DNA of 64,000 bases from Virgisporangium aurantiacum (GTDB taxonomy: Bacteria > Actinomycetota > Actinomycetes > Mycobacteriales > Micromonosporaceae). The position numbers and the translations under genes were made by a program. Positions 23,837 through 35,689 of the stretch are shown piece after piece. Below the pieces are notes generated by a model, which had not been told where the DNA came from, ran no database searches, and saw only the letters and a program-made list of their open reading frames with translations. The DNA is taken from NCBI RefSeq assembly GCF_016863635.1, contig NZ_BOPG01000009.1, forward strand, positions 124,001 through 188,000. Reading direction: 5' to 3'. The number at the start of each line of letters is the position of its first letter. Position 1 is the stretch's first letter.

Positions 23837-23892
23837 GCGCGATCTTGGACTCCTCGCGGTGCTCCAGGCCCTTCAGGAGTCCAAGATCGCGC
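23837..23892. terminator. 18-bp perfect inverted repeat between convergent genes
   Basis: GCGCGATCTTGGACTCCT (23837-23854) pairs fully with 23875-23892 around 20 bases. It serves the Gfo/Idh gene (ends 23829) and the long oxidoreductase gene (ends 23899). The core TCCAAGATCGCG also occurs at 47539-47550, so it may be a dispersed element. Confidence 0.75.
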
Positions 23893-23898
23893 GGGTGA

Positions 23899-26800
23899 TC
23901 AGCTGACGTGCGCCAGGCGGGGCTGCCAGTAGCGGTCGTCGTGGGGCGGCTCGTAGCCGCCGCGATCGTAAGCGCTCCGCTGGTAGCCACCGCGGTCGTA
24001 GCCGCCCTGGGGGTAGCCGCCGCGGTCGCCGGCCCGGTCGTAGCCACCGCCGTCGTAGCCGCCCTGGGAGTAGCCCCCGCGGTCATGGCCACTCGGGGGG
24101 TAGCCCCCGCGGTCGTGGCCGCCCTGGCCGTAGCCGCCACGGTCTTGGCCGCCCTGGGGGGCGTAGCCGCCGCGGTCATGGCCGCCCTGGCCGTAGCTGC
24201 CACGGTCTTGCCCACCCTGGGCGTAGCCGCCGCGGTCGCCGGCCCGGTCGTAACCGCTCTGGCCGTAGCCGCCCTGGCCGTAATCGTCGCGGTCGTAGCC
24301 ACCTTGGCCCTGGCCACCCTGGCCGTAACCGCCACGGTCATAGCCGCCGCGGTCATGGCCAGCGCGGTCGTAGCCACCGTGATCGCCGGCCCGGTCGTGG
24401 CCGCCGCGGTCATGACCACCCTGGCCATAGCCACCGCGGTCGTAGCCGCCCTGTTCGTAGCCGCCGCGGTCGTAGCCATTGCGGTCATAGCCGCCACGGT
24501 CGTAGCCGCCACGGTCGTAGCCGCCACGGTCATCGCCGGCCTGGCCGTAGCCACCCTGGCTGTGGCCACCACGGTCGTAACCGCCGCGGCCATCGCCAGC
24601 CTGGCCGTAACCACTCTGGCCGTACCCACCCTGGCCCTGGCCACCCTGGCCCTGGCCACCCTGGCCGTAACCGCCCTGGCTGTAGGCACCACGGTCGTGG
24701 CCACCGCGGTCGTAACCGCCGCGGTCATCGCCGGCCTGGCCGTAGCCACCCTGGCCGTGGCCAGCCTGGCTGTAGGCGCCACGGTCGTGGCCGTTGCGGT
24801 CGTGACCGCCGCGGTCATCGCCTTGGCCGTACCCACCCTGGCCGTAGCCGGCCTGGCCGTAGGCGCCGCTGTCGTAGCCGTTGCGGTCATAGCCGCCGCG
24901 GTCATCGGCGGCCTGGCCGTAGCCACTGTGGCCTTGACCGCCGTGGTCGTAGCCGCCTTGGCCAGCCTGGCTGTAGCCCCGGTTGTAGCCGCCGGACTCG
25001 TAGTTCTGGTAGCCGGGACCGTGGCCCGCCTGGTCGTAGCCCTCGTAGGGGCTTCGTTCGGGGCCGGCGCCGATGGCCAGTTGCGGACGGGCGCTTGCCG
25101 GTCGGTCGTACTCCGACTGGCCGTAGCCCGGCGTGGCGTACGCCGCACTGCCGAAGCCGGCGCCGAAGCCGGGTCCGGACGTCGGGCCGTAGCCCGAACC
25201 GGCCGCCGGGCCGTTGGCCGACCGGGGCGGCGGGCCGAAGCCGCGCGTCTTGCCGTACTGGTACTCCTGCACCAGCGGGTGCCCACTGTCTGCCCGGATC
25301 GCCGGCAGGTTGCCGGTCTCGTCGGTGCCACGCATGTAGGTGACGTCGGGGCCGGTGTTGGCGTACCGCTCTTCGTAGCCCGGGTCGTAGGGCGCCGGGC
25401 CGTAGCCACGCTCGAAGTCGGGTTGGCCGTAGCCCTGTTCATAGCCCTGGGCGTAGGCGGCCCGCTCGTACATCGGGTCGTAGCCGGCGTGGTTGTATGT
25501 CGCCTCGTAGCCGGCGCGGTCGTACGCCGCGTCGTATCCGGCCTGGCCGTAACCGGCGTAGGCCGGCTCGGGGCCGTACGCGGGCTCCGGGCCGTAGCCG
25601 GGCTCGGGTCCGCCGTAGTTTGCCGACGACGGCAGCGCGAACTGGCCCGGGATCGGTGCCGGCTCGGGCGCCGCACCGAGGGCCAGCCGCACGGGGGGAG
25701 CCTCCAGCGGACCGACACCGGGCGACACCGGAGCCGGCAACGGCGGGAGCACGGTGACCGACGGCTCGTCGAGCCGCATCATGCGGGCCGTGTTCGTGAA
25801 CAGCCGCGGCGCGTTGACCGCGACGGAGCCGATCAGCTTCCCCTTGCGCGTGTACGTGGCCAGCACGCCGCTCTTCGCCGGGTCCTTCTTGCCCGGGCGC
25901 AGTTCGTGCACCTCGATGTCTGCCTTCGGGTCTACCTCACCGCAGACCTCGATGCGCAGGCCGCCCTGGTGCGTCCAGAAGCGCGGCAGGATCGAGACGG
26001 CCGGGACCGGCCGTCCGCCCGCCATCAGCGCGCGAGCCGCGCCGATGCCCTGTTCCTGCGCGGCGATCCACTGGCCGACCTTCTGCGGCTTGCCGTTGCC
26101 ACGCGGGTTGGGCCACCGGGCGATCGAACCGCAGGCCACCACCCCGTCGACGGCGTCGCCGTTGGTGTCCAGCACGCGCAGCGACGCGTCACAGAGGACG
26201 CCGTCGCTCGTGTCGATGCCGGTGCCGTCGAGCCACGTCAGGTCGGGGCGCTCGCCCATGGTGCCGACGACGATGTCGGCGTCGACCGTCGACCCGTCCT
26301 TCAGCGTCAGGTGCCACTGGTTCCGGTTGTACTCCAGGCCGGTCACCCGGCCACCGGACGCGATCTCGATGCCGTGCCGCTTGTGCGAGGCGGCGACCAT
26401 GTGGCCGATCACGCTGCCCACCGCGCGTCCCATCACGAACGGACGGGGTTCGATGATGACGGCCTGGCGGGCCATGTCCTTCACCGCGCAGGCGACCTCG
26501 CACCCGGTGACCCCGCCGCCGACGACGGCCACCCGCTTGACGGTGCGCAGGTCACGCCGCAGGTTCCAGGCGGCCTGCAGCCCGCTGATCACGTGCATGC
26601 CGGGCTGGTCGTCGGGCCAGTCGTTGGGGACGACGGCGCGGGCGCCGGTCGCGACCACCAGGCCGTCGAAGAAGATCGACTCACCGGTGTGCGCCTCGAC
26701 GACCCGGCGCTCCAGGTCACAGGACACCGCGCGGCGGCCGAGCCGCCAGATGACGTCGAGGTCGGGATCGAGCGGCGTGATGACGTCGCTCGGGCGCTTC

Positions 26801-26979
26801 TGCCCGGACAGGATGCCCTTGGAGCACGCCGGCCGGTCGTAGTGACCCTCGGGCTCGTCGCCCATCACCACGATCTCGCCGGCAAAGCCCATCCGGCGCA
26901 GTTCCGTGGCGCACGACAGGCCGGACGCGCCGGAGCCGACGATCAGGATCCGGTCACGCACGTCGAAGTCGACGTACAT
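23899..26979 (-). CDS. Ferredoxin reductase-like FAD/NAD(P) oxidoreductase with a 570-residue Gly/Tyr low-complexity tail
   Basis: A 1026-residue protein. Residues 8-405 form a Pyr_redox_2 ferredoxin reductase: FAD site ILIVGSGASGLSC, the HYDRPACSKGIL segment, NAD site VAVVGGGVTGCEVA, the TMGERPDLTW region and GVVACGSIARW. A Pro-rich linker runs from about 410 to 450. From about 454 to the end the chain is nearly all Gly, Tyr, Gln, Asp, Arg, His, Ser and Asn, in short units such as GGYDRGGY and GYGQGG, like the condensate-forming tails of FUS or hnRNP proteins. Typical reductases are about 400 residues. It begins 3 bases after the membrane heme-ferredoxin gene, which should supply its electron partner. 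Confidence 0.88.
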   Translation of the reverse strand: MYVDFDVRDRILIVGSGASGLSCATELRRMGFAGEIVVMGDEPEGHYDRPACSKGILSGQKRPSDVITPLDPDLDVIWRLGRRAVSCDLERRVVEAHTGESIFFDGLVVATGARAVVPNDWPDDQPGMHVISGLQAAWNLRRDLRTVKRVAVVGGGVTGCEVACAVKDMARQAVIIEPRPFVMGRAVGSVIGHMVAASHKRHGIEIASGGRVTGLEYNRNQWHLTLKDGSTVDADIVVGTMGERPDLTWLDGTGIDTSDGVLCDASLRVLDTNGDAVDGVVACGSIARWPNPRGNGKPQKVGQWIAAQEQGIGAARALMAGGRPVPAVSILPRFWTHQGGLRIEVCGEVDPKADIEVHELRPGKKDPAKSGVLATYTRKGKLIGSVAVNAPRLFTNTARMMRLDEPSVTVLPPLPAPVSPGVGPLEAPPVRLALGAAPEPAPIPGQFALPSSANYGGPEPGYGPEPAYGPEPAYAGYGQAGYDAAYDRAGYEATYNHAGYDPMYERAAYAQGYEQGYGQPDFERGYGPAPYDPGYEERYANTGPDVTYMRGTDETGNLPAIRADSGHPLVQEYQYGKTRGFGPPPRSANGPAAGSGYGPTSGPGFGAGFGSAAYATPGYGQSEYDRPASARPQLAIGAGPERSPYEGYDQAGHGPGYQNYESGGYNRGYSQAGQGGYDHGGQGHSGYGQAADDRGGYDRNGYDSGAYGQAGYGQGGYGQGDDRGGHDRNGHDRGAYSQAGHGQGGYGQAGDDRGGYDRGGHDRGAYSQGGYGQGGQGQGGQGQGGYGQSGYGQAGDGRGGYDRGGHSQGGYGQAGDDRGGYDRGGYDRGGYDRNGYDRGGYEQGGYDRGGYGQGGHDRGGHDRAGDHGGYDRAGHDRGGYDRGGYGQGGQGQGGYDRDDYGQGGYGQSGYDRAGDRGGYAQGGQDRGSYGQGGHDRGGYAPQGGQDRGGYGQGGHDRGGYPPSGHDRGGYSQGGYDGGGYDRAGDRGGYPQGGYDRGGYQRSAYDRGGYEPPHDDRYWQPRLAHVS
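23920..25620 (-). repeat. Degenerate coding repeats of the Gly/Tyr tail
   Basis: About 1.7 kb made of imperfect 12-24 base units encoding G-Y-D-R-G-G, G-Y-G-Q-G-G, G-H-D-R-G-G and G-A-Y-S-Q blocks. The densest part is 23920-24990. Unit order is irregular, as expected from repeated slippage and unequal exchange. The opposite strand is free of stops for thousands of bases, which is a by-product. Confidence 0.85.
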
Positions 26980-26982
26980 AGA

Positions 26983-27855
26983 TCAACGCCTCCCGTTGCG
27001 GTGGTACGTGTGGTCGCTCGGCGGCCAGTTGCGCGGCGCCGGGCTCACCGGCGGATCGGTCGGCGCAACCAGGCGCAGCGGAATCGACCGCGGGTCACCG
27101 CCGCCGCTGTGGCTGAGCGCGATCGCGCGGGCCGGGCAGGCGCGGGCCGCCGCGATGGCCGCCTCGAGCTTGTCCTCGTCGACGATCGCGTGGTACGCGA
27201 GCCCACCGTCGTTGCGCAGCGCGAAAAGCTCGGGAGCCTCCTGTTCGCAGAAACCGAACCGGGCGCAGTAGACCGGGTTGACCTCGATGGTCGCCGTGCG
27301 GTTGTTCCGCCGGCCGACGAACCGGTTCTTGAACGCCTTGGCGCCGTTGCCGGTGAGCCAGAGGACCATCACCGCGAGCCAGGGCAGCACCACGACGATG
27401 GCGACCCAGGTGTAGCCGGTCTCCGCACCGGAGATCAGGATGTGCCCCGTCATCGCGGTGTAGGCACCGAACACGGTGCCGTGCAGCGCCCGCCACCGGT
27501 GGAAGCCCAGCTTCTTCTGGATCCCGATGGATGCCGCCACCGCGATCATGACCTCCATCGCGAGGACGCCCGCACCGATGCCCCAGGGGTCGATGTCGTT
27601 GGTGAACGGCACCACCACGTCGATGAGCTCGACGGTGCCGGTCGTCGGCGTCAGCTGGGAGAAGCCGTGCACGACCGCGAGCGTCAGGCCCAGGGTCGCC
27701 AGGAGACCGTGGATGGTCAGCATCGTGGTGTGCTTCATCTTCGTCATCGCCCAGCCGCGCGACAGTGCGAGGCCGGCCAGCAGCGCGAGCCACAGCAGCG
27801 ACGCCGAGGCGAACCCGAGCGTGGCCGCCAGGTAGTGAATTGGATCGATGTCCAT
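26983..27855 (-). CDS. Membrane heme protein fused to a 3Fe-4S-type ferredoxin domain
   Basis: A 290-residue protein. About six membrane spans occupy residues 5-175, with histidines placed as heme b ligands: MLTIHGLLATLG with VVHGFSQL, and FHRWRALHGTVFGAYTAMTGHIL, like ferric-reductase-like or cytochrome b-type domains. Residues about 195-255 are a cytosolic ferredoxin with CARFGFC (C-x5-C) and ACPARAI, the pattern of P450-type 3Fe-4S ferredoxins. A proline-rich tail ends the chain. With the reductase next door it would form a short electron path NAD(P)H, FAD, Fe-S, heme across the membrane. The final electron acceptor is unknown. Confidence 0.8.
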   Translation of the reverse strand: MDIDPIHYLAATLGFASASLLWLALLAGLALSRGWAMTKMKHTTMLTIHGLLATLGLTLAVVHGFSQLTPTTGTVELIDVVVPFTNDIDPWGIGAGVLAMEVMIAVAASIGIQKKLGFHRWRALHGTVFGAYTAMTGHILISGAETGYTWVAIVVVLPWLAVMVLWLTGNGAKAFKNRFVGRRNNRTATIEVNPVYCARFGFCEQEAPELFALRNDGGLAYHAIVDEDKLEAAIAAARACPARAIALSHSGGGDPRSIPLRLVAPTDPPVSPAPRNWPPSDHTYHRNGRR

Positions 27856-27876
27856 CTGTCTGCGATGTCCCCTGGA

Positions 27877-28596
27877 TCAGACGGTGCCGCGAAGGCCTCG
27901 AACGACACCGGCAATGCCTATGGCACCGGTCACGGCAAAGAACGCGATCATCATCAACGGCTGTTTCTTGAAGCCTTCCGCCCGATCGTTGCCCTTCGCC
28001 ACGACGGGCGGGGGCATGGCGCCCATGTCGACCTCGTTGGTGCTCTCCAGCAACGACATGTGCCGGTGCACGAAGAGCTCGCACTGCTTGGCGAAGTCGC
28101 GCATCAGGGGGTTGCGGCTGAAGGCGCGCACCTGGGCGATGGCGCCGTACACCACGCCGTGCGCGAACCGGAGGCGTTGCGCGAACAACTCGTCCATCTT
28201 CTTGCCGCTCGCGCCCCTGATCTCGTCCATCCACCCCTGCTGCTGGAGACTCGCCGCAGAGGGCAGTGGGTGGCCGAATCGCGCGGCGACCCGGGTGACG
28301 TCGTCGTCGAGCACCCGGTGGTCGGCGGCGATCAGCTTGCCGACCTCCTTCGTCCGCTTGCTGAGGCCCTTCTGCTCGGCCAGTTCACCCATCGGGATCT
28401 CCCAGAGTCCGGCCTGCTTGACCTTGTCCAGGAACACCATGTCGGCTTCATCGAAGTCGGCGGTGCTGGCGTTATCCGGGAGGACGAAACTCTTCGGAGC
28501 ATCTTCGTCGCCAGGTTCGGCCTGTGCCGGCGAGGCACCGAGAACGAGGCCGGCGCTGATCAGTCCCAGCGCGACGACGGCGAGGATGCGCTTCAC
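27877..28596 (-). CDS. Secreted DUF4142 protein with C-terminal membrane anchor
   Basis: A 239-residue protein. Signal peptide at 1-26 (VVALGLISAGLVLGASPAQA). A DUF4142 four-helix, ferritin-like domain follows (TADFDEADMVFLDKVKQAGLWEIPMGELAEQKG, KLIAADHRVLDDDV), then a membrane helix near the end (PLMMIAFFAVTGAIGIAGVV). GTG 28596 has GGAGG five bases ahead and overlaps the anti-sigma stop. Family function is unknown; some members have been linked to envelope stress. Its extracytoplasmic place makes it a candidate partner of the membrane heme protein. Confidence 0.8.
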   Translation of the reverse strand: MKRILAVVALGLISAGLVLGASPAQAEPGDEDAPKSFVLPDNASTADFDEADMVFLDKVKQAGLWEIPMGELAEQKGLSKRTKEVGKLIAADHRVLDDDVTRVAARFGHPLPSAASLQQQGWMDEIRGASGKKMDELFAQRLRFAHGVVYGAIAQVRAFSRNPLMRDFAKQCELFVHRHMSLLESTNEVDMGAMPPPVVAKGNDRAEGFKKQPLMMIAFFAVTGAIGIAGVVRGLRGTV

Positions 28597-28772
28597 GACG
28601 CCTCCGAGTACGCGTACATGGTGGTTGTCATCAGGTGCACGATTTGAGAGAGCCATTCCAGTTCGGCCGGGCAGGTGGGGCAGTTGTCCAGGTGACCGAC
28701 GAAGTCGTCCGCGTCGTCGCGATCCAGCGAACCAATGGCGTACGCGGCCACATCGACGTGAACGGATGTCAT
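28593..28772 (-). CDS. 59-residue soluble zinc-finger anti-sigma factor
   Basis: Hand translation gives a 59-residue protein beginning MTSVHVDVAAYAIGSLD. It contains HLDNCPTC, the H-x3-C-x2-C zinc motif of the anti-sigma (ZAS/zf-HC2) domain, and no membrane segment. Its ATG overlaps the sigma stop as ATGA and its TGA overlaps the GTG of the DUF4142 gene, so it is locked into one operon. ZAS proteins of this type bind region 2/4 of the sigma and often release it on thiol oxidation. Short enough to be missed by gene callers. Confidence 0.82.
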   Translation of the reverse strand: MTSVHVDVAAYAIGSLDRDDADDFVGHLDNCPTCPAELEWLSQIVHLMTTTMYAYSEAS

Positions 28773-29350
28773 TTGATCACACCCTGCTGTTCCAACTCGG
28801 CGCGCAGCATGCGCAGCGCACGGTAGACGCGGGACTTGATCGTTCCGACCGGCACGTTGAGCCTGGCCGCGGCCTGCTCGCCGTTGCCGCCGCGGAAGTA
28901 CATCTCGAAGAGCACCTCGCGATGCGCCGGTCCGATCGAACGCAGCGCCCGCTGCACGGCCACCGACGACGTGATCCGCTCGATCTCGTCGGGCGCCGGC
29001 AGGGTCGCGAGGACGGCGTCGTCAACCTCGGTCGGGCGAGCCTTCCGCCGCCGGTGGTTGTCGATGACGATCCGGCGGGCCACCGCCACGAGCCAGGGCC
29101 GCAGTGACGTGCCCTCCTCGATGTGCAGCTTGTCGGCGTTGCGCCAGGCCCGCACCAGCGTCTCCTGGACAACGTCCTCGGCCTTGTGCCGGTCGCCTCC
29201 GGTAAGACCGAGCGTGAAGGCCAGCAGTGGGCCGGCGTGCTCGGCGTACAGCGATCGGATCAGCTCATCCCGGTCACGCGGGGTGCGCGTCGCGGGCTCG
29301 ATGGTGGCCACCGCTGAGACTGACAAGATCGCCTCCTCTCGTCGCGTCAT
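28769..29350 (-). CDS. ECF sigma factor heading the redox operon
   Basis: A 193-residue sigma factor. Region 2 lies at about 30-95 (LIRSLYAEHAGPLLAFTLGLTGGDRHKAEDVVQETLVRAWRN) and region 4 at about 130-190 (ALRSIGPAHREVLFEMYFRGGNGEQAAARLNVPVGTIKSRVYRALRML). The ATG at 29350 is preceded by GACGGACGACG; an upstream ATG at 29416 would add 22 residues. It is the first gene of the set sigma, anti-sigma, DUF4142, heme-ferredoxin, reductase, all overlapping or within 21 bases. Self-transcription of the operon under redox stress is the natural inference. Confidence 0.87.
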   Translation of the reverse strand: MTRREEAILSVSAVATIEPATRTPRDRDELIRSLYAEHAGPLLAFTLGLTGGDRHKAEDVVQETLVRAWRNADKLHIEEGTSLRPWLVAVARRIVIDNHRRRKARPTEVDDAVLATLPAPDEIERITSSVAVQRALRSIGPAHREVLFEMYFRGGNGEQAAARLNVPVGTIKSRVYRALRMLRAELEQQGVIK

Positions 29351-29483
29351 GTTCGTCGTCCGTCGAACGTCGTCGAATCGCGCTCGTCGAACCTTTCCGT
29401 GAAATGGATACGCCACTTCTGAGGGACAAATCGGACTGCTGTGTCGAACTTAAGACAGGGAAAAGCGCCCGTTGACGCCGAAA

Positions 29484-29641: not shown

Positions 29642-30319
29642 TCATCCCTGCGGTGCGACCGCTCCCGCCGGGAGACAGCTCACGTTCCGTTGACCGGTCG
29701 ACTGCACGACCCACCACGAATTGTTGACCGCCTGGCCCTTCCACTTGGCCGGGCCGTTGTCGCCGATGAACCGGTACAGCGGCCAGCCGCCGATGGTCGC
29801 CTGGCGCCCGCCGTCGGGCCGCTCGATCGCGCCGACCTTGGCCGGGTCGATGCCGATGACCGTCGGGGTGCCGTCGACCAGGATCGGCAGCCAGGAGCGC
29901 AGACACGCGTCGTAGCACGTGGACGCCGGCGGGTTCGCGGTGTCGAGGTCGAAGCGGTAGGTGGTCCAGCCCGCGCTGTCGACCACCACGTTGCCCATCT
30001 TGCTGATGTCCTTGCCGGTCAGCGACGTGGTCTTGAAACCGACGGGCGTGGCGCCGGCCGACGCCGAACCGGGGGCCGGCGGTGGCGTGGACGCAGCCGG
30101 CGCGCCGTACCCGTCACCGCCGCCGGCGTTGTAGGCGGGTCCGTTCGGCGACGACGACGCCGACGGCTCGGCCGCGGAGACCGCGCCGGCCGCCTTCGCC
30201 TCACCGCGGCCGGATCCACCGCCCAAGCGGGCGTGTACGAGGTAGACGGTCAGGAGCACAGCGCCCAGCAGTACAAGTGCCAGGAATCCACGCCTCTGCA
30301 TTACACCGGCGGAATTCAT
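29642..30319 (-). CDS. Secreted COG4315 (PF03640 repeat) protein
   Basis: A 225-residue exported protein. Signal or anchor helix at about 10-30 (FLALVLLGAVLLTVYLV), then a Gly/Ser/Ala/Pro linker to about 90, then two PF03640 repeats with the Y-x-[FWY]-x-x-D mark: TYRFDLDTANPPASTCYDACLRSWLPI and LYRFIGDNGPAKWKGQ. The Cys pair in STCYDAC is typical. Function is unknown, but such secreted repeats often neighbour DUF4142 and redox genes. It lies upstream of the sigma-led redox operon on the same strand and may be a target of it. Confidence 0.8.
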   Translation of the reverse strand: MNSAGVMQRRGFLALVLLGAVLLTVYLVHARLGGGSGRGEAKAAGAVSAAEPSASSSPNGPAYNAGGGDGYGAPAASTPPPAPGSASAGATPVGFKTTSLTGKDISKMGNVVVDSAGWTTYRFDLDTANPPASTCYDACLRSWLPILVDGTPTVIGIDPAKVGAIERPDGGRQATIGGWPLYRFIGDNGPAKWKGQAVNNSWWVVQSTGQRNVSCLPAGAVAPQG

Positions 30320-33922: not shown

Positions 33923-35689
33923 ATGACTCAGCCGCCGGCGTCGCACCAGGGTGGGCCACCCTCGCCCGAGTCTCCGTGGGAGCGTCCGGCCAGCGGGCCT
34001 TCGTCCGGGCCACCGTCGGCCGGGCCGGCCTCGGGCGCGCCGTTCCCGGGTGAACACACGGGCGGCCAGCCGTACCCGGGCGCGCCAGCGTCGGGGCAGC
34101 CATACCCCGGAGCACCGGCATCGGGCCAGCCGTACCCCGGGGCACCGGCGTCGGGGCAGCCATACCCGGGCGCACCGGCGTCCGGCCAGCCCTACCCCGG
34201 GGCACCGGCGTCCGGCCAGCCCTACCCCGGGGCACCGGCATCGGGCCAGCCGTACCCCGGTGCGCCCGCGTCGGGGCAGCCTGGGTCGGCGACCGGCGTC
34301 GTGCCGCAGATGGCGGGGCCGGCGTTCGACACCGCGGCACAGGCCTGGGCGGCCGCGCCGCCGCCACCCAAGTCGATGCAGTGGAAGCGGCTGTTGCAGC
34401 TGATCAGCCTCTGCGCGTTCGTCGGGTTGTGCGGGTTGGCGCTGCTGATCATCGTCGGCGTCAATATTGGGGCGGCGGCGCTCGCGGTCGGCATTGTCAG
34501 CGCCGTGATTCCGGTGCCGTTGCTGGTCTACGCGTTCCTGTGGCTCGACCGGTACGAGCCCGAGCCGGTAAAGTACTTGGCCTTCTGCTTCGCGTGGGGC
34601 GCCTGCGTCGCGACGTTCGTGGCGTACCTGGTCAATACGGGCGTCGCCATTCTGCTGGACCGCAACGACCTGTCGGAGCACTTCGTGACGGTGGTGGGCG
34701 CGCCGTTCATCGAGGAGATCATGAAGTTCGCCGGCCCGCTGCTGCTGTTCTGGCGGCGCCGGCGGGCGTTCTCCGGCACGATCGATTCGATCGTCTACTG
34801 CGGCCTCTCGGCCACCGGCTTCGCGTTCGCCGAGAACATTTTGTACCTGGGCGGGCTCGGTTACGCCCAGAACGCCGAGGAGGGTGGTGCGCTCGGCGGC
34901 GCGCAGGGCGTCGTCGTGCTGTTCTTCGCCCGGATTCTGATGAGCGGGTTCGCCCATCCGCTGTTCACCTCGATGTCGGCGATCGGGCTCGGCCTCGCGG
35001 TGCGGTCGCCGTCGAAGACGGTGCGGATCCTGGCCCCGATCGCCGGCCTGCTCGCCGCGATGATCCTGCACGGGGCGTGGAACGGCATGTCGGTGCTGGT
35101 GCAGACCACCGAGGAGCCGCTGATCTTCCTCTACGGCTACTTCGCCGTGATGATCCCGATCTTCCTCGGCATGGTCGGCTACTCGCTGTGGCTGCGGGCC
35201 GCGGAGGGCCGCCTCGCCGAGCGCATCCTGCCCGAATACGTGCGGGCCGGCTGGCTGTCGCCACCGGAGGTGGCCACGCTCGTCACGATCGGGCGGCGGC
35301 TGTCGGCCCGGCAGTGGGCGAAACGGGTGGCCGGGCCGGAGGGCGCCAAGGCGATGAACGCCTACCAGTTCGACCTCACCCGGCTCGCGTTCCTGCGCGA
35401 CCGCATGCACCGCGGCCTCGGAACCAGGCCGAATGAGATCAACGCCACGGTCGCCGAGGAGCGGCGGCTGCTGGAGTCGATCATGGCGTACCGGCGGGTG
35501 TTCACCGGACGCGATCCGGCCGCGCCGCAGGCGATGTGGGACGGCTACCAGTACCACGTCGCGTTCCCGGACGGCGTGGTGCGTGCGGTGGCGTCACCCG
35601 AGCAACCCGTCGTGCCGGTGCCGGTGCGGCTGGCGCCGATGGCACCGCCGCCGATACCCGGGTACGGGGGGTACCCGACCTACAGGTAG
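33923..35689 (+). CDS. PrsW-family intramembrane protease with a Pro/Gly repeat N-terminus
   Basis: A 588-residue membrane protein. Residues 1-135 are disordered and Pro/Gly/Ser-rich, with seven exact copies of the 10-residue unit PYPGAPASGQ. Eight or so membrane spans follow, with the PrsW glutamates in FIEEIMKFAGPLLLF, the SATGFAFAENILYLG motif and histidines in FAHPLFTSMSA and MILHGAWNG. PrsW-type proteases cleave anti-sigma factors or other membrane proteins. The C-terminal 130 residues are cytosolic. Start ATG 33923. The stop overlaps the convergent GroES-like gene by 10 bases. Confidence 0.85.
   Translation: MTQPPASHQGGPPSPESPWERPASGPSSGPPSAGPASGAPFPGEHTGGQPYPGAPASGQPYPGAPASGQPYPGAPASGQPYPGAPASGQPYPGAPASGQPYPGAPASGQPYPGAPASGQPGSATGVVPQMAGPAFDTAAQAWAAAPPPPKSMQWKRLLQLISLCAFVGLCGLALLIIVGVNIGAAALAVGIVSAVIPVPLLVYAFLWLDRYEPEPVKYLAFCFAWGACVATFVAYLVNTGVAILLDRNDLSEHFVTVVGAPFIEEIMKFAGPLLLFWRRRRAFSGTIDSIVYCGLSATGFAFAENILYLGGLGYAQNAEEGGALGGAQGVVVLFFARILMSGFAHPLFTSMSAIGLGLAVRSPSKTVRILAPIAGLLAAMILHGAWNGMSVLVQTTEEPLIFLYGYFAVMIPIFLGMVGYSLWLRAAEGRLAERILPEYVRAGWLSPPEVATLVTIGRRLSARQWAKRVAGPEGAKAMNAYQFDLTRLAFLRDRMHRGLGTRPNEINATVAEERRLLESIMAYRRVFTGRDPAAPQAMWDGYQYHVAFPDGVVRAVASPEQPVVPVPVRLAPMAPPPIPGYGGYPTYR
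34069..34281 (+). repeat. Seven 30-bp tandem repeats inside the PrsW gene
   Basis: Each unit encodes PYPGAPASGQ. Copies differ at third positions (for example GCGTCGGGG against GCATCGGGC), so selection holds the peptide rather than the DNA. The unit number is likely to vary between strains. Confidence 0.85.

Follow-up and report, generated by a model that had tools for sequence, protein, structure and literature searches.

Why would a bacterial ferredoxin reductase carry several hundred residues of Tyr/Gly-rich sequence? The question is raised by a minus-strand frame at 23899..26979 of the window, the whole 64,000-nucleotide stretch of DNA from the soil bacterium Virgisporangium aurantiacum analysed here. 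The frame is complete, running from ATG to TGA, and encodes a long-tailed ferredoxin reductase of 1026 aa plus stop. A sequence-only reading had described a normal-length reductase to about residue 405 with a Tyr/Arg/Gly tail of 570 residues. The frame is real, and Pfam, the AlphaFold model and composition bear out this two-part description; the tail, however, is 612–621 residues long. The new point is that the tail is an enlarged linker between the core and a conserved C-terminal tip and not a simple add-on.

Reductase core and its membrane neighbour

The FAD/NAD(H) ferredoxin reductase core occupies residues 1–411 (25747..26979, minus strand), as delimited by Pfam, solved relatives and the AlphaFold model, and is predicted to be folded to about residue 405. 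Pyr_redox_2 was matched at residues 10–311 and Reductase_C weakly at 334–401 (21.8 bits against a Pfam cut-off of 25), with nucleotide-binding motifs GSGASG at 15 and GGGVTG at 154. The FAD, NAD and C-terminal domains and the GxGxxG motifs of BphA4/FdR9-type enzymes were all present. A sequence search of solved structures identified 1d7y as a relative (E 2.5e-40); solved relatives include BphA4, TodA, FdR9 and putidaredoxin reductase, and the 14 solved sequences matching the core are 393–436 residues long. In its AlphaFold model, the short V. aliadipatigenens orthologue shows a BphA4-type fold according to Foldseek. Judged by sequence and predicted structure, the core is a BphA4-type ferredoxin reductase. 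The motif IIEPRP at 175 places an acidic residue after the second NAD strand, which agrees with NADH by the rule given in the available part of PMC7397466. NADH is the putative electron donor of the core.

Directly upstream, three bases apart, lies the gene of the predicted membrane partner (290 aa; 26983..27855, minus strand), which combines a ferric-reductase-like haem domain with a single-cluster ferredoxin domain. The match to Pfam Ferric_reduct reached 27.5 bits against a curated cut-off of 28. Putative ligands are H49, H63, H125 and H138 for haem and C197, C203 and C240 for the cluster. The haem histidine spacings of 14 (H49/H63) and 13 (H125/H138) are those of human NOX2, as given in the available part of PMC3591440. 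All four histidines and three cysteines were kept in 25 of 25 aligned partners. Of the 31 sequences prepared, six were in a wrong frame and were taken out; the 25 aligned comprise the window's own, those of V. ochraceum and P0007, and those from 22 of 28 loci.

Core matches at E 1e-60 or better were found in 33 of 250 family genomes, 36 matches in total, of which 30 were read with their loci, four weaker ones were added later and two extra ones in one genome were left out. All 30 of the loci examined for it had a relative of the partner gene upstream of the reductase gene and co-oriented with it, which upholds the earlier claim of an adjoining membrane-protein gene. Pfam scans of eight window proteins turned up no oxygenase; the conserved neighbour is the haem membrane protein.

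Just past the reductase stop is a terminator-like 18-bp hairpin without a T run (23837..23892, minus strand; −46.7 kcal/mol, z −5.8), and a search for T-run terminators found none. Upstream of the partner, all on the minus strand, follow a DUF4142 protein (27877..28656; Pfam), an ECF sigma factor identified by family profile search (28769..29416) and an SCO0930-like lipoprotein with PF03640 repeats (29642..30319; 131 bits against an NCBIfam cut-off of 275). Between the sigma factor and DUF4142, overlapping the listed DUF4142 start, is a 59-aa frame with CPTCPAEL (28593..28772, minus strand; MTSVHVDV...CPTCPAELEW), which we take to be a likely minimal zinc-finger anti-sigma factor. The DUF4142, sigma factor and lipoprotein genes keep the same order and strand in both congeners; elsewhere among 21 loci this trio is otherwise arranged or absent. 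A 1579-aa open frame (23908–28647, plus strand), Ala/Val-rich over the tail, runs antisense to the reductase and partner and is most likely a shadow of the tail's G/Y/D/R codons.

Tail composition and the C-terminal tip

For the window protein, AlphaFold with an alignment of 29 sequences gave a model that was confident to about residue 405, and residues 415–1026 had pLDDT below 50 and no secondary structure. Charge-hydropathy analysis also predicted disorder. The tail holds 75 tyrosines versus 4 in the core. Its proximal linker (residues 412–640; 25060..25746, minus strand) is rich in Gly, Ala, Pro and Tyr and can be aligned with V. ochraceum, and its distal linker (residues 641–1013; 23941..25059, minus strand) is built of GGYDR/GGYGQ-type units with Y or H mostly every 5 residues. 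Residues 641–1026 are 36% G, 13% Y, 12% D, 10% Q and 10% R (139 G, 50 Y, 46 D, 39 Q and 38 R in the last 386 residues). Tandem Repeats Finder reported a 15-bp unit at 23946–24957 (66% matches) and a 30-bp unit at 23951–24961 (67% matches). The tail is thus a predicted-disordered chain of about 600 Tyr/Gly/Arg/Asp/Gln-rich residues.

Aromatic residues in the distal part were spaced more evenly than in 1000 of 1000 shuffles, an evenness that stems partly from the repeat unit itself. In the proximal linker, 23% of shuffles were equally even, and in the L023 linker 47%. Third codon positions had appeared A/T-richer in the tail than in the core; after residue-type correction the excess was small (68 seen versus 58 expected of 369), and the point was dropped. 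Repeat-unit dN/dS within the tail (0.56 in the window, 0.34 in V. ochraceum) was set aside, the units having been chosen by protein pattern.

The protein closes with the tip DDRYWQPRLAHVS (residues 1014–1026; 23902..23940, minus strand), identical in V. ochraceum and of the motif class of short-linker relatives. The window protein ends in RYWQPRLAHVS, the metagenome relatives P0001 and P0002 (82% core identity) in WYWRPSLATVA and P0003 (63%) in RRLAVAR. At short-linker loci, the protein ends 13–50 residues past aligned residue 400, mostly with RRLAxVx-like peptides such as RRLAAVS, RRLSLVG, RRLASVA and NYLAAVG. A simple rule (L/F/Y/I at −5, V/A/T/I at −2) described 67 of 83 sequences. Of the 53 distinct last-seven peptides it covered 41, whereas 2000 shuffles averaged 1.5 such peptides and never exceeded 7; several of the 16 sequences outside the rule have the tip peptide displaced by one or two places. 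Three sequences were left out before this count: P0056, whose Arg-rich end suggests a frameshift, P0044, which duplicates L023, and och5, truncated by a contig end.

Since tail-less relatives and long proteins end in one tip type, the tail is best described as a hugely grown linker between core and tip. The tail that the sequence-only reading saw as an addition is present, but it precedes a conserved tip which that reading missed. The frame is beyond chance on sequence grounds, given the tip type in common with tail-less relatives and the 13-residue end identical in V. ochraceum. Because 600 extra codons still lead in frame to the conserved tip, the whole frame, tail included, is very probably translated.

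An order-wide search gave both partner and tip in 6 of 6 closer relatives. Where the adjoining partner reached 35% identity or more, with the match extending beyond the ferredoxin part, the reductase carried the tip in 34 of 36 loci (all except L020 and L038). It was found in 0 of 19 more distant reductases with a readable end, 10 of which adjoin a distant or partial partner (26–51% identity, two in the ferredoxin part only). The tip therefore marks a family branch and is no proof of partner binding. In one metagenome protein, P0007, partner and reductase are fused and the tip is missing, a pattern consistent with a partner-binding tip; the fusion may, however, stem from the loss of a stop codon or from an error in the sequence. 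Two other relatives, P0004 and P0005, have a short C-terminal end without the tip and carry 286 and 216 extra N-terminal residues, respectively, containing Pro and Tyr.

Two congeners were compared, V. ochraceum (95% core identity) and V. aliadipatigenens (72%). The V. ochraceum gene is divided by a contig break within the repeats: contig 137 ends with 298 residues of the tail, and a further 211 at the end of contig 136 close with the identical 13 residues DDRYWQPRLAHVS. Downstream of this end are a Gfo/Idh gene and a LuxR-type gene (86% and 96% identity to those in the window); the same neighbours in both genomes indicate that the two pieces form one locus. Distal tail identity was 55%, against 95% in the core, and composition stayed close: 13.1% Y, 9.7% R, 11.8% D and 10.2% Q in the window, and 15.2, 9.6, 13.1 and 9.1% in V. 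ochraceum. Our own Nei-Gojobori script gave dN/dS of 0.33 for the proximal tail (212 alignable codons, residues 406–620) versus 0.11 for the core. For each of four block sizes, the distal alignment scored above every one of 300 shuffles (541 against at most 540 with 20-residue blocks), which ruled out that the units of the two tails are fully reshuffled. Unit order is partly kept, so the matching composition partly reflects common descent. V. aliadipatigenens has the same gene pair with only 32 residues past residue 400; the long chain is therefore dispensable for keeping the pair, and any benefit of the linker would be an extra on top of the basic reaction.

Among all relatives, the stretch past residue 400 was as short as 13 and as long as 626 residues. 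In a tree built from 83 cores (P0056, P0044 and P0025, the last with an odd end, left out), Tyr-rich long linkers fell into two groups that lie apart. One is the Virgisporangium clade (10 rows with support of 100/99 and 0–17% Tyr among members), the other a clade with a Natronosporangium protein (11 rows with support of 100/100 and 1–13% Tyr). The long Tyr-rich linker is common to the window, V. ochraceum and the metagenome relatives at 82% and 63% core identity. The sequence-only reading had weighed a strain-specific tail, with relatives ending near residue 410. V. aliadipatigenens does end in this way, but V. ochraceum, the metagenome relatives and the second clade have long linkers. Its other expectation, conserved composition with variable length, was borne out by the close V. 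ochraceum shares and the varied linker lengths of relatives.

Tyrosine contents of at least 8% were found in 9 of 15 linkers of at least 150 residues, 2 of 14 of 60–149 residues and 1 of 52 below 60 residues. Across these 81 sequences linker length and Tyr share correlated (Spearman 0.60), a descriptive trend and no independent test since the rows are related; the count omits P0056, P0044, P0025 and och5, as well as one row whose linker has at most 12 residues. Tyr-poor long linkers occur in P0010, P0050 and P0054 (about 1% Y or less). In a plasmid search, matches among the best 20 of 21 records covered at most 40% of the query and cores only.

Possible roles of the enlarged linker

We tentatively prefer, at rather less than even confidence, the reading that the chain between core and tip would cluster the reductase at its predicted membrane partner, in the manner of the sticky tails of some condensate-forming proteins. 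NADH would reduce the FAD core, as the motifs suggest, and the neighbouring membrane protein would receive the electron at its ferredoxin domain and its two haems, as suggested by its domains and conserved ligands. The tip may dock on some site, perhaps on the partner. The tyrosines, with arginine and glycine, could serve as closely spaced stickers holding many reductases together on the membrane, a role suggested by composition and by work on SSB. Clustering would raise the local enzyme concentration. It is placed at the partner because of the parallels with the head-linker-tip design of SSB and FtsZ. For this reading, the tail-less V. aliadipatigenens relative is a ready control within the genus, and the conserved tip gives a precise, testable handle on the enzyme's destination.

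Tip conservation, the V. ochraceum composition at 55% distal identity, the two Tyr-rich clades, predicted disorder, even distal aromatics, the proximal dN/dS of 0.33 (0.11 in the core), the partner gene in 30/30 loci, the ligands kept in 25/25 aligned partners and the role of the linker in SSB condensation were counted for clustering. Counted against it were the V. aliadipatigenens pair with its 32 residues, the Tyr-poor long linkers, the absence of aromatic evenness from the proximal linker and L023, the share of the repeat unit in the distal evenness, the common descent that partly explains the V. ochraceum composition, and the distant relatives beside a distant partner, which lack the tip in 10 of 10 cases. 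The short-orthologue model, in which the tip (pLDDT below 50) was not docked on its own core, was also counted against.

The main rival is a passive tether, in which the chain is a long flexible spacer giving the tip reach without self-association; we consider it possible but doubtful. The tip as the conserved element, the 13–626-residue range past residue 400 and the existence of Tyr-poor long linkers all agree with a tether. A spacer, however, needs no tyrosine, yet the share of linkers with at least 8% Y is 9/15 among those of at least 150 residues versus 1/52 among those below 60 (related rows), and V. ochraceum, though only 55% identical, has similar Tyr and Arg shares.

Repeat slippage would account for tail length without selection. 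Under neutral growth, slippage would have enlarged a tolerant linker, with selection only keeping the frame open for the tip. Runs of short units such as the YGQQG array in V. ochraceum, the short V. aliadipatigenens linker, the varied lengths among close relatives and the fast distal divergence (55% vs 95% in the core) are as such growth would leave them. We nevertheless regard it as unlikely in view of the dN/dS of 0.33 in the alignable proximal tail, the Tyr-rich linkers in two clades and the age of the tail, which is common to V. ochraceum and relatives at 82% core identity.

A redox sink, in which the 75 tail tyrosines (4 in the core) near the flavin act as sacrificial or hopping sites protecting the enzyme or cross-linking, would suit the predicted flavin/haem electron path next door but is very improbable, as a disordered chain allows no defined Tyr-Trp chain geometry and no known oxidant-handling enzyme was found among the eight Pfam-scanned window proteins.

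Similar tails occur on other proteins. The GGYDRGGY coding pattern was found in 7 of 250 family genomes, two matches being the Virgisporangium reductase genes. Three others, L044, L046 and L047, have tails ending in DWMDD, DWLDG and DWLDD, respectively; L044 (weakly) and L047, the two scanned with Pfam, have a carboxypeptidase-regulatory-like part followed by a hydrophobic stretch. The remaining matches were L045 and L048. In the window's own genome, L100 is a membrane-type protein with a Gly/Tyr tail ending in SEWQD. A search of that genome with the tail had matched only itself and suggested a unique tail; it overlooked L100 and so gives no support for uniqueness. A distal-tail search of 5.8 billion proteins (7988 candidates scored) gave 104 hits with E of 1e-5 or lower, some of them MltG/YceG and LCP proteins. 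Gly/Tyr chemistry thus turns up repeatedly on membrane proteins of actinobacteria. Tails of this type are not peculiar to the reductase, and a redox enzyme is an unusual carrier of them and not the sole one.

Several further low-complexity proteins were noted. L101 and L102 are membrane-type proteins with a Gly/Tyr tail ending in NDWPE and NWMDD, respectively; like L100 and L046, they have a putative carboxypeptidase-regulatory-like ectodomain. A PrsW-family intramembrane protease in the window (33923–35689, plus strand) is a membrane protein with seven low-complexity GQPYPGAPAS repeats near its N-terminus, and P0066 of Butyrivibrio starts with a ferredoxin domain and has a long GYDKDGYN-type repeat region.

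A wider version of the clustering reading, which we offer as speculation and consider distinctly unlikely, is a membrane redox condensate. The reductase tail and the similar Gly/Tyr tails of the same cell's membrane proteins would mix into a sticky layer gathering NADH-driven transmembrane electron transfer, with the short tips as address labels.

Comparison with known systems

By sequence and model, the reductase has an SSB-like head-linker-tip design, with a predicted-disordered linker and a conserved C-terminal peptide. It may work like SSB but is not an SSB, since Pfam matched no OB domain in it; its head is an oxidoreductase without a known nucleic-acid link. The SSB C-terminal tip is acidic, and the reductase tip is RRLAxV-like. 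The available parts of PMC12143593 and PMC11947617 describe in SSB a folded head, a Gly-rich disordered linker with aromatic and positive residues, and a conserved end peptide that binds partners. According to the former, Gly-rich stretches together with aromatic and positive residues of the linker set condensation in E. coli SSB, and the linker comprises residues 114–178 (PMC12143593); that of the reductase is about ten times as long. FtsZ likewise joins its core through a disordered C-terminal linker to a conserved peptide, which binds membrane anchors (PMC12747378, available part). Unlike FtsZ, the reductase has a core that does not form polymers, a linker of Tyr/Gly repeats and a tip whose partner is only putative.

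BphA4/FdR9-type reductases, as covered in the available part of PMC7397466, resemble the window protein in core sequence and fold. In contrast to them, the reductase adjoins no oxygenase; its neighbour is a haem membrane protein that carries a ferredoxin domain itself. With FUS-type low-complexity domains the tail shares Tyr/Gly/Gln composition with Arg-Gly units. FUS/FET proteins combine such domains with an RNA-recognition motif and a zinc finger; the window protein is a bacterial enzyme in which Pfam matched neither of these and no RNA-binding domain.

Our literature search found no bacterial ferredoxin reductase with a Tyr-rich low-complexity phase-separating tail. Literature on low-complexity sequence in Actinobacteria held nothing relevant to the reductase tail, and that on electron-transfer condensates and on Virgisporangium, in the portions available, had nothing on such a tail among the matches listed.

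The tails of actinobacterial MltG/YceG, LCP and CarboxypepD_reg proteins have the same kind of repeat chemistry. Several CarboxypepD_reg-type proteins also end in a short tip, there acidic with Trp. Those tails are on membrane proteins, presumably on the cytosolic side, whereas the chain described here belongs to a predicted soluble enzyme. If the tail clusters that enzyme, it would be a natural bacterial redox enzyme carrying its own condensate-forming chain.
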